Positions 9,153 through 61,043 of a stretch of DNA of 64,000 nucleotides are shown here, in pieces. The notes below the pieces were generated by a model. That model saw only the letters and a list, made by a program, of their open reading frames with translations, was not told the origin of the DNA and made no database searches. The stretch is from Erinaceus europaeus (lineage: Eukaryota > Chordata > Mammalia > Eulipotyphla > Erinaceidae). The stretch lies in NCBI RefSeq assembly GCF_950295315.1, contig NC_080176.1, forward strand, positions 33,197,006 to 33,261,005, written 5' to 3'. Numbering within the stretch: the first letter of the stretch is position 1; each line of letters opens with the position of its first letter. Position numbers and translations under genes: made by a program.

Positions 9153-9310
9153 AGGAGGAGGAGGAGGAGAAGGAGGAGGAGAAGAAGGAGAAGAAGAAGA
9201 AGAAGAAGAAGAAGAAGCAGAAGAAGAAGAAGAAGAAGAAGAAGAAGAAGAAGAAGAAGAAGAAGAAGAAGAAGAAGAAGAAGAAGAAGAAGAAGAAGAA
9301 AGAGAGAAAG
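9150..9310. repeat. (GGA)n then (GAA)n microsatellite, about 160 bp
   Basis: It starts with GGAGGAGGAGGAGAAGG and becomes pure (GAA)n. A single C at 9218 interrupts it, and 9219-9300 is uninterrupted (about 27 triplets). The plus strand is purine-only; CALN1 RNA would carry UUC repeats. The tract arose in a SINE tail. Confidence 0.95.
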
Positions 9311-41925: not shown

Positions 41926-41927
41926 AA

Positions 41928-41971
<44 letters not shown>

Positions 41972-42065
41972 AAAGAAAAGAAAAGAAAAGAAAAGAAAAG
42001 AAAAGAAAAGAAAAGAAAAGAAAAGAAAAGAAAAGAAAAGAAAAGAAAAGAAAAGAAAAGAAAAG
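41926..42065. repeat. (AAAG)n then (AAAAG)n tract grown from an L1 tail
   Basis: About eleven AAAG units switch near 41970 to about nineteen AAAAG units, with no other interruption. Confidence 0.95.
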
Positions 42066-51744: not shown

Positions 51745-51845
51745 CTATGTCCTGGAACCTCGCTTCTCCAGAGCTCTGGCCCACAAGGGAAAGATAGAAA
51801 CAGGCTGGGGGTATGGATCAACCTGCCAATACCCATGTCCAGCAA
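51745..51845 (+). mobile_element. L1 3'UTR type L, left part of a split copy
   Basis: CTATGTCCTGGAACCTCGC, TCTCCAGAGCTCTGGCCC, GGAAAGATAGAAACAGGCTG and CCAATACCCATGTCCAGCAA. It resumes at 54194 after the inserted L1, but about 85 bp of the consensus between the two parts is missing. Confidence 0.85.
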
Positions 51846-52690
51846 GAAAATTATCAGGCAATATAGTAAGGTGTCAGGCTACAAAATTAACATTCAAAAG
51901 TCAGTGGCATTCCTCTATGCGAACACAAGGTTAGATGAACATGAAATCCAGAAATCAACTCCTTTTACTATAGCAACAAAAACAATAAAATATCTAACAA
52001 TAAACTTAACCAAAGAAGTGAAAGACTTGTATAATGAAAATTGTGAGTCACTACTCAAGGAAATTGGAAAAGACACAAAGAAGTGGAAAGATATTCCATG
52101 TTCATGGGTTGGAAGAATTAACATCACTAAAATGAATATACTACCCAGAGCCATTTACAAAATGAATGCTATCCCCATCAAGATACCAAACCCACTTTTT
52201 AGGAGAATAGAACAAATGCTACAAATGTTTATCTGGAACCAGAAAAGACCCAGAATTGCCAAAACAATCTTGAGAAGAAAGAACAGAACTGGTGGCATCA
52301 CACTCCCAGATCTCAAACTGTATTATAGGGCCATTGTCATCAAAAGTGCTTGGTACTGGAACATGAATAGACACACTGACCAGGGGAATAGAATTGAGAG
52401 CCCAGAAGTAAGCCCCACACCTATGGACATCTTATCTTTGACAAAGGTGCCCAGAATATTAAATGGGGAAAGCAGAGTCTCTTCAACAAATGGTGTTGGA
52501 ATAAACGGGTTGAAACATGCAGAAGAATGAAACTGAACCATTATAGTTCATCAAACACAAAAGTAAATTCCAAGTGGATCAAGAACTTGGAAGTTAGACC
52601 AGGAACTATCAGATACTTAGAGAAAAATATTGGCAGAACTCTTTTCCACATAAATTTCAAAGGCATCTTCAATGAAATGAATCCAATTAC

Positions 52691-52705
52691 AAAGAAGACT
52701 AAGGC
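52691..52705. repeat. target-site duplication of the RPL41 retrocopy, left
   Basis: AAAGAAGACTAAGGC in L1 ORF2. The same 15 bp follows the poly(A) at 53127-53141, with the leading As shared with the tail. Confidence 0.92.
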
Positions 52706-53126
52706 TCTTGGCCTTAGCGCCATCTTCCTAGAACGATGAGAGCCAAGTGGAGGAAGAAGCGAATGCGCAGGCTGAAGCACAAAAGAAGAAAGATGAGGCA
52801 GAGGTCCAAGTAGACTTGTGCACCCATGGAAGCCACGGGAGCAGAAATAAGGGATGTCGGAGGCCAGAGGCGCTGGTACAAATTGGACTTCTGTGCTGTA
52901 GCCTAGAATTTGTTTTCAGCGGATCTAGAACCTCATCACCATTTGATCCTACGCGACCATCTTGAGTGACCTTCATTGCTCATACAAAGACACAGTCCCT
53001 TTTGCTCCTTTGCCTTAGACTTGTCATTCTGGACTAGTTCTGCTCTCCTTGTGGCTGAATGTAACCCGTGTACAATAAATAACCTCTTCTGCTATCTTAG
53101 CTGAAGGGAGAGAAAAAAAAAAAAAA
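52706..53126 (+). pseudogene. RPL41: RPL41 processed retrocopy, full-length, ORF intact
   Basis: A copied mRNA of ribosomal protein eL41, the very short, basic 60S/intersubunit-bridge protein. It starts in the 5'UTR (GGCCTTAGCGCCATCTTCC) and has ATG at 52736. The frame runs 25 codons to TAG at 52811: MRAKWRKKRMRRLK, then HKRRKMRQRSK. Length equals the family's 25 residues. The only change from the vertebrate consensus is His at residue 15, where Arg is expected (CAC for CGC). The 3'UTR keeps GGATCTAGAACCTCATC and AATAAA (53074-53079), and the copy ends in poly(A). There are no introns, and 15-bp duplications flank it, so this is L1-mediated retroposition into an L1 in a CALN1 intron. No promoter is evident. 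Confidence 0.96.
53074..53079 (+). terminator. polyadenylation signal of the RPL41 retrocopy
   Basis: AATAAA in GTACAATAAATAACC, about 30 bp before the poly(A) tract at 53113-53129. Confidence 0.85.
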
Positions 53127-53141
53127 AAAGAAGACTAAGGC
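53127..53141. repeat. target-site duplication of the RPL41 retrocopy, right
   Basis: AAAGAAGACTAAGGC, after which L1 ORF2 sequence resumes with AAGTATAAACC. Confidence 0.92.
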
Positions 53142-54193
53142 AAGTATAAACCTATGGGACTACATCAAATGAAAAAGCTTCTGCACAGCAAAAACAAACA
53201 AACAAAAAACCCTACCTAAACAAAGAGACCCGTCACAGAATGGGAGAAGATCTTTATATACCATACATCAGACAAGAGTTTAAAAACCAAAAGATATAAA
53301 GAGCTTACCAAACTCAACCACAAGAAAACAAATAACCCCATCCAAAAATAGGGGGAGGACATGGACAGAATATTCACCACAGAAGAGATCCAAAAGAGAT
53401 CCACATGAAAAAATGCTCCAAGTCTTTGGTTGTCAGAGAAATGCAAATAAAGACAACCATGAGATATCACTTCACTCCTGTGATAAAGTCATACATCAGA
53501 AAAGGTAGCAGCAAGAAATGCTGTAGAGGTTGTGGGGTCAAAGGAACCCTCCTACACTGCTGGTGGGAATGTAAATTGGTCCAACCTCTGTGGAGAACAG
53601 TTTGGAGAACTCTCAAAAGGCTAGAAATGGGCCTACCCTATGATCCTGCAATTCCTCTCCTGGAGATATATCCTGAGGAACCCAACACACCTATACAAAA
53701 AGATATGTGTATATCTATGTTCTTAGCAGCATAATTTATAATAGCCAAAACCTGGAAGCAACCCAGGTGTCCAACAACAGATGAGTGGCTGAGCAAGTTG
53801 TGGTATATATACACAATAGAATACTATTCAGCTATTAAAAATGGTGATTTCACCATTTTCAGCCCATCCTGGATGAAGCCTGAAGAAATCATGTTAAGTG
53901 AAATAAGTCAGAAACAGAAGGATGAATATGGGATGATCTCACTCTCAGGCAGAAGTTTAAAAACAAGATCAGAAGAAAAAACACAAGTAGAACCTGAACT
54001 GGAGTTGGTATATTTCACCAAATTAAAAAAACCGGGATGGGTGGGGAGGAGATTACAGGTCCAAAAAAGATGTCAAAGGACCTAATTGGGATTATATTGT
54101 TATGCAGAAAACAGAAATATTATGCATGTACAAACTATTGTATTTATTGTCAAATATAAAACATTAATCCCCCAATAAAGAAATTTTTTAAAA

Positions 54194-54312
54194 AAGAATA
54201 GGAAAGTTATCAGGGGAAGGAATGGGATACAGAGTTCTGGTGGTGGGAATTGTGTGAAATTATACCTATCTTATCTTATGCTCTTGTTAATATTTCCATT
54301 TTATAAATAAAT
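54194..54312 (+). mobile_element. L1 3'UTR type L, right part of the split copy
   Basis: AAGAATAGGAAAGTTATCAG, GGAATGGGATACAGAG, GGAATTGTGTGAAATTATAC and a CATTTTATAAATAAATTTTT tail. It completes the copy begun at 51745. Confidence 0.85.
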
Positions 54313-59808: not shown

Positions 59809-61043
59809 ATGGTTAAACCAACAAGAAGAAATATTGGAGAAATCAACCAGGACAAGAGTCCAGCTAAAAGCCCCCCAAAGGGTGAAGCACAAAATAATGT
59901 CAACACCCAAATACTAGTTAAGGAAATAATCACAGGAGTGAGTAAAGAGTTTGAAAGAATTGTCATCAGAAATGCAGAAACAACAAATGAGACTCTGGAA
60001 GAAAACACTAATTATCTCAAGGTTATTAAAGAACTGAAAGCTGAAGTAGCTGAGCTAAGAACACAACTAGCTGAACAAGCTAACAGTATCAGAACAGGGT
60101 AACAAAAGAGATGAACTCCAGAAACAGTAGAGGGGAGAGAGAATAGAATCTTTGAGGCTGAAGAAAGAATTAGCAAGATCAAGGATGAATTAGAAACAAC
60201 CAAAAAGGAAGTAAGAGATCTCAAAAAGAGATTAAGAGAGACTGAAAACAACAACAGAGACATATGGGATGACTTCAAAAGAAACAATACATGCATTATT
60301 GGCTTACCACAAGAAGAAAGAGAGGGAGAGAAAGAAAGCATTCTTCAGGCCATAATAGCTGAAAACCTCTCTAGTCTAGAAAACATCAAAGACATAAAGG
60401 TTCAAGAAGCCTAGAGGGTCCCAAACAGAATTAACTCAGACTTAAAGACACCAAGACACATCATATTTAGAATGAAAAGGAATAAGGATAAAGAAAGGAT
60501 CCTGGGGAGTCGGGCGGTTAAGCAGCGGGTTAAGCGCAGATGGTGCAAAGCTCAAGAACCAGCCTAAGGATCCCGGTTCAAGCCCCGGCTCCCCACCTGC
60601 AGGGGAGTCACTTCACGAGTGGTGGAGCAGGTCTATCTTTCTCTCCCCTTGTCTTCCCCTTCTCTCTCCATTTCTCTCTGTCCTATGAAACAACAATGAC
60701 ATCATTCATAACTACAATGATAAAACAACAAGAGCAATAAAAGGGAATAAATAAAATTAAATATTAAAAAAAGAAAAGATCCTGAAGGTTGCAAGAGAAA
60801 AACAAAGAGTCACCTACAGAGGAAAACCCATAAGATTAGCAGCAGACTTCTCCACACAAACACTACAGGCCAGAAGAGAATGGAAAGATATCTATCAAGT
60901 ACTCAATGAGAAAGGCTTTCAACCAAGAATACTGTATCCTGCTAGACTGTCATTCAGACTAGATGGAGGCACAAAAACTTTCTCAGACAAGGAATCAACT
61001 ATCACCAAGCCTTCCCTGAAAGAAGTTCTGAAAGGTCTCCTAT
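59809..61043 (+). pseudogene. L1 ORF1 (element 3), broken by stops and a SINE
   Basis: ATG at 59809 (ATGGTTAAACC) starts 97 open codons: basic N-terminus (MVKPTRRNIGEINQDKSPAK), VSKEFERIVIRNAETTNETL and coiled coil (YLKVIKELKAEVAELRTQLA). A stop in AGGGTAACAAAAG follows. Further coiled coil (RRLRETENNNRDIWDD-like) and RRM sequence continue in other frames. A SINE cuts it at 60505. The C-terminal domain resumes at 60785 (RVTYRGKPIRLAADFSTQTL-like, REWKDIY-like, YPARLSFRLDG-like) and ends at GGTCTCCTATAA near 61043. It comes from a different L1 lineage from ORF1 at 62597. Confidence 0.85.
60505..60772 (+). mobile_element. SINE type A inside L1 ORF1
   Basis: GGGAGTCGGGCGGTTAAGCA head with a small deletion of TAGCG, CGGTTCAAGCCCCGGCTCCC and AACAAGAGCAATAAAAGGG. 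Duplications GAAAGGATCCTG (60493-60504) and GAAAAGATCCTG (60773-60784). Confidence 0.92.

Follow-up and report, generated by a model that had tools for sequence, protein, structure and literature searches.

The closest described counterparts of the locus analyzed here are the processed ribosomal protein (RP) pseudogenes of mammals, which are intronless copies of RP mRNAs accompanied by many sister copies. The survey of human, chimpanzee, mouse and rat reports 1,462 to 2,848 such pseudogenes (PMC2687790), and of the 2090 human ones listed by Zhang et al. (2002), 258 are cited as intact in PMC2657826. With a coding sequence (CDS) of 78 bp, RPL41 is given as the shortest human RP gene; yeast is said to be able to do without it (PMC1459141). 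Since the parental CDS is the shortest one, open frames are to be expected among its copies far more often than among the copies of longer RP genes. A second described system is that of the retrogenes, which PMC2657826 defines as intact retrocopies for which there is transcriptional evidence.

Published searches for retrocopies work with thresholds: a length of at least 150 bp in RetrogeneDB (PMC5509963), peptides of over 50 aa in a survey of mammalian retrogenes (PMC2657826) and a BLAST E < 1e-10 in the survey of RP pseudogenes, where the term L41 is absent from the main text (PMC2687790). A preliminary description of the present locus held that copies as short as this one are usually missed by gene finders, and this view fits the 150 bp and 50 aa thresholds in print. 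Our literature search for rpl41 together with retrocopies found nothing, and the matches listed included no study of hedgehog RPL41 retrocopies, although one may still exist.

Here we describe an RPL41 copy from the hedgehog Erinaceus europaeus. It lies in a stretch of 64,000 nt (NC_080176.1, positions 33,197,006 to 33,261,005 of the forward strand), which was analyzed as a whole and is called the window below. We are almost certain that the copy is a young processed pseudogene, i.e., a retrocopy of a known kind. It resembles the mammalian processed RP pseudogenes in being an intronless mRNA copy with many sisters; it has the open frame in common with the retrogenes, but is known from its sequence alone.

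Results

Direct reading of the window places the RPL41 copy, both target-site duplications (TSDs) included, at positions 52691-53141 of the plus strand, on which all features given below are located. The 15-nt TSD, AAAGAAGACTAAGGC, opens the copy (52691..52705) and closes it (53127..53141); the repeat search found both, and they constitute the sole family of direct repeats of at least 11 nt reported for positions 52600-53250. The first TSD is followed by a 5'UTR of 30 nt (52706..52735), which was delimited by reading and by alignment to the parent gene. This leader begins at CTCT, the apparent transcript start of the parent, its first C being common to the TSD, and the alignment to the parent and to the other copies places in it the point of a 9-nt deletion (52731..52734). 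The frame of eL41, comprising 25 codons and TAG (52736..52813), is intact according to the frame reading, Pfam and PDB, and an A is retained at -3 relative to the ATG. The 3'UTR (52814..53112), aligned to exon 4 of the parent, carries the polyadenylation signal AATAAA at 53074..53079, the same place as in the parent, and is followed by a tail of 17 A (53113..53129), the last three of which are common to the second TSD.

The peptide encoded by the complete frame matches the Pfam family Ribosomal_L41 (PF05162) with an E value of 8.8e-12 over residues 1-25 of 25. It differs from the PDB chain 11hg_41, the sequence of which is identical in 305 entries, by a single residue, R15H: codon 15 (52778..52780) aligns as CAC (His) to the parental CGC (Arg), a CpG transition. 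The PDB search with the peptide of the copy matched 28 distinct sequences, and residue 15 is Arg in five of the five alignments shown. Rfam (at the gathering threshold) and ARAGORN gave no matches in the window.

The first DNA search of the animal's own genome (2.72 Gb, 1172 contigs) scored the best 40 of 118 candidates and returned 42 rows at 40 places; the second one, with an older copy as the query, scored the best 40 of 110 candidates and added nine places. Among the places returned, the intron-bearing one is locus L012 on contig C85, the parent gene. It comprises four exons, the first three of 28, 25 and 23 nt, separated by GT-AG introns that measure 120, 345 and 186 nt; its spliced frame encodes exactly the mammalian eL41, codon 15 being CGC (Arg). 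All three introns are missing from our copy, which is found at a new location on contig C93. Thus the preliminary description, which had claimed a full-length retrocopy with an intact 25-codon frame, one residue changed from eL41 (Arg15 to His), 3'UTR, AATAAA, poly(A) and flanking duplications, is borne out by the re-reading, by the PDB comparison and by the three introns of the parent, except for the full length: the 5'UTR does reach the apparent transcript start but lacks 9 nt before the start region, a loss that the description had overlooked.

At least 49 places are known in total, namely this copy, the parent and at least 47 other RPL41 copies. Of the 47 found, 46 cross the exon joints without introns, and L045 has the last exon alone. 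L045, which starts no more than a few nt away from the exon 3/exon 4 joint, was considered as a second intron-bearing RPL41 and rejected, because its upstream sequence does not match intron 3 of the parent; we read it as a probable 5'-truncated copy. Nearly all sister copies have the same start, the same 3' end and A-rich tails, and flank repeats are present in most of those tested. The difference of the UTRs from the parent ranges from 0.6% to 12.8% in 38 other copies and reaches 15% in one of them, the 3' end of which departs; the copy described here ranks 7th of 39 when ordered from the lowest divergence. One of the sister copies (L006) lies on a small contig, C137, of 169,917 bases. The copies also allow the changes in the parental UTR to be ordered, for example the step in the leader by which CTTCCT became CTTCT. 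Immediately ahead of the start region, seven copies (L005, L007, L010, L011, L015, L022 and L023) have GAA, the parent has CCA and most of the others have GCA, which hints that the GAA group may stem from an older parental allele or from a source lineage.

The flanks of the copy belong to a LINE-1. On the upstream side, positions 51835-52527 match residues 720-915 of a PDB LINE-1 ORF2 protein with an E value of 2.3e-75; on the downstream side, 53405-53731 match residues 1091/1092-1199/1200 with an E value of 2.6e-44, and the downstream search also gave residues 1-40 of CFAP61 (E 3.6e-7), ranked under the LINE-1 rows. We take the matched ORF2 proteins to be the human protein. With the insert and one 15-mer removed, the distance between the two anchors comes arithmetically to 374 codons, compared to 372 in the ORF2 protein, and hence the host LINE-1 is nearly collinear with that protein. 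This inner, 5'-truncated LINE-1 extends with its ORF2 part over 51845..52690 upstream of the copy (left edge approximate), and with the end of ORF2 and the 3' end over 53142..54192 downstream of it (right edge approximate). Pfam recognized no family in five LINE-1-like pieces of the window. LINE-1 pieces from the flanks of three other RPL41 loci (L039, L036 and L020), which need not be the closest relatives of the host, cross the insertion site uninterrupted at identities of 86%, 76% and 78%, respectively, and the one of L039 represents the empty site, carrying the 15-mer of the TSD once and no insert. The matches to ORF2p on both sides and these three uninterrupted LINE-1s confirm that the insertion occurred in ORF2 of a LINE-1, as had been proposed.

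The inner LINE-1 in turn interrupts another repeat, the parts of which were recognized from other copies in the window: a 5' part at 51747..51844 and a 3' part at 54193..54311, with some matches reaching 54347. Of five other window copies that were aligned, four hold both parts joined, with about 75 nt between them; the fifth one agrees over the 5' part and most of the intervening stretch, beyond which it diverges. About 75 nt of the target were thus lost where the inner LINE-1 entered (51844/54193), and no TSD was found at this junction. We read the outer repeat as the 3'UTR of an older LINE-1, a reading that is drawn from its repetition and layout and not from a library match. The earlier proposal that the host lies within the 3'UTR of another LINE-1 holds insofar as another repeat is interrupted, at a junction that shows the loss of about 75 nt and no duplication. 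The relative order derived from the nesting is upheld by the layout of the interrupted repeats: the outer repeat came first, followed by the inner LINE-1 and then by the RPL41 copy. Among the LINE-1 pieces of the examined loci, the one nearest to the inner LINE-1 is about 14% different from it, whereas the branch of the RPL41 copy accounts for about 1.5%; these values fit an insertion of the inner LINE-1 before that of RPL41.

Elsewhere in the window, positions 59809-60102 hold an open frame of 97 aa with no Pfam match above the cut-off; judged by eye, it resembles the start of a LINE-1 ORF1. Long and almost perfect simple repeats occupy 9168-9300 (AGA x 44, 95% matches) and 41926-42065 (AAAAG x 30, 98% matches).

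An exact match of at least 9 nt between the 5' and the 3' flank was observed in 27 of 39 copies (this copy included, the parent left out), compared to 72 of 1482 mismatched pairs of flanks; the match is below 9 nt in the remaining 12 of 39. At the length found here, at least 15 nt, none of the 1482 mismatched pairs match. The parent has a genomic run of 10 A at the cleavage point, right after the end of its 3'UTR, so that some of the A residues in the tails of the copies may have been templated.

The 9 nt missing just before the start region distinguish this copy from its sisters, as not one of the 46 other copies extending this far shows the same loss. We favour a small deletion as its cause: the loss is flanked by short direct repeats, AC, which would be extended to GAAC if the template had an A at parental position 38, as 8 of 38 other copies have, and such repeats could explain a slip. 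The 9 nt could also have been absent from the template mRNA already, if intron 1 had been removed with the use of another 3' splice site, and the loss does begin a few nt from the exon 1/exon 2 joint. However, neither the parent nor the variants of the other copies have an AG at the required place, and splicing of this kind left no trace in any of those 46 copies, which leaves this explanation with a slim chance.

When compared with the present parent, the UTRs of the copy differ at 10 of 319 sites (the first 12 nt excluded), which fits a young copy. At 6 of the 10 sites most of the 38 other copies carry the letter of this copy, which indicates that it was the parent that changed there; the other 4 differences are private or nearly so. 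The excluded part of the leader contains one further difference, at parental position 7 (CpG), and the change is present in ten other copies as well. In the UTR tree the end branch leading to the copy has a length of 0.0155, equal to about 5 of 328 sites, and the support of the nearby branching is low (0.40). At an assumed substitution rate of 2-5e-9 per site and year, 5 of 328 sites would correspond to an age of roughly 3-8 million years.

The coding part has accumulated one change in 78 sites, a nonsynonymous one. Set against 5/319 or 4/319 in the UTRs, this gives a Fisher p = 1.0 in both cases, with the very low power that a single change entails. In the simulation, the frame was open after one substitution in 0.87 of the cases and after two in 0.74-0.76. 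Among the readable copies, this one included, 16 of 40 are open and 24 are broken, counts that lean towards older copies, as the excluded 8 of 48 that were unreadable in frame all belong to the ten least diverged. When only the 31 readable copies without indels or truncation are considered, 16 are open; a simple neutral model, in which CpGs were assumed to be ten times as mutable as the rest, predicts 17.8 +/- 2.6. Summed over the 39 other readable copies, the difference from the parent is lower in the coding part (194/2892) than in the UTRs (1176/11198); we tentatively ascribe this to constraint on the frame of the parent while its UTR moved. Selection on the frame of the copy was considered and finds no support in the rates, at very low power, or in the counts of open frames, which are near the neutral expectation.

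The frame contains three CpGs, located in codons 9, 11 and 15, and in the other readable copies these codons are changed in 16/38, 23/39 and 20/37, respectively. Each of the remaining codons is changed in at most 7 of 35-39 copies. Residue 15 is His in 8 of 37 other readable copies and Cys in seven. A single simulated substitution produced R15H in 0.9% of the cases with flat rates and in 7.4% when CpGs mutated ten times as fast as other sites. In a tree built from the UTRs only, the six His15 copies then known stand in different places, as judged by eye and not by a formal test. A common origin of R15H in these copies, through shared ancestry or through another source gene, is not supported in view of this scatter and of the CpG hot spot. 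The CpG codon, the simulated frequency and the scattered His15 copies together make R15H unremarkable; it is among the commonest first changes and not a marked variant.

The preliminary description had treated both the intact frame and the His15 residue as noteworthy. Neither assessment is supported, the first because 16 of 31 is close to the neutral expectation, the second because codon 15 is a hot spot changed in more than half of the other copies.

Discussion

Our data describe the copy as an ordinary one, made by LINE-1 and one of dozens in its own genome. Its anatomy is directly visible, while the part of the LINE-1 enzymes is deduced from the TSD and the tail. A spliced and polyadenylated RPL41 mRNA would have been copied in trans by these enzymes, and the cDNA would have been inserted into ORF2 of an older, 5'-truncated LINE-1 with the duplication of 15 nt. 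Judging from the start position common to the copies, probably no promoter came along. Later drift would have added about 5 substitutions in the UTRs, the loss of 9 nt ahead of the ATG and, at a CpG, the transition that causes R15H. From the rates we infer that the frame is still open owing to its length of 78 nt and to the youth of the copy, without the action of selection.

Nothing in the sequence appears to point to a function of the copy. One might argue that a noncoding RNA arises from it by transcription of the LINE-1 or of its neighbourhood and either acts on the RPL41 mRNA or titrates the factors that regulate it. A review covers retrocopies that give rise to regulatory RNAs (PMC8071448); however, no pointer to such a role was observed in the sequence here, and we regard it as very improbable.

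It is even harder to believe that the copy is a functional retrogene, the eL41 variant of which, with His15, would enter ribosomes. The frame is open with one residue changed, and the A at -3 and the polyadenylation signal have been retained. However, the coding part and the UTRs evolve at like rates (at low power), and the sole coding change is nonsynonymous at a CpG hot spot, where sister copies in different places of the UTR tree (by eye) became His15 as well. Additionally, the copy apparently lacks a promoter of parental origin, and the 500 nt upstream of it are CpG-poor LINE-1 with an observed/expected ratio of 0.05, compared to 0.73 around the start of the parent. A variant of this idea would be a transcription restricted to some tissues, by which the His15 eL41 would reach some of the ribosomes as a lineage-specific variant, hidden from annotation pipelines by its frame of 25 codons; on the present sequence this too seems highly improbable. 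Finally, it is scarcely conceivable that the block, cDNA-like and placed within a repeat as it is, was joined into the contig as an assembly artefact or a cDNA contaminant, as the single form of the TSD is present in another LINE-1 (L039), the copy has private mutations and its flank repeats are of the kind seen in most sister copies and seldom in mismatched pairs.

We therefore return to the processed pseudogene and to what it means. An open frame does not speak for a function in copies of eL41, because about half of the indel-free copies are open, just as the neutral simulation predicts; the value of the locus is thus one of calibration. Two of the surveys in print would omit such copies through their length thresholds. 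The RPL41 family is a natural record of how a 78-nt frame with three CpG hot-spot codons decays, and it also records the change of the parent's own UTR.
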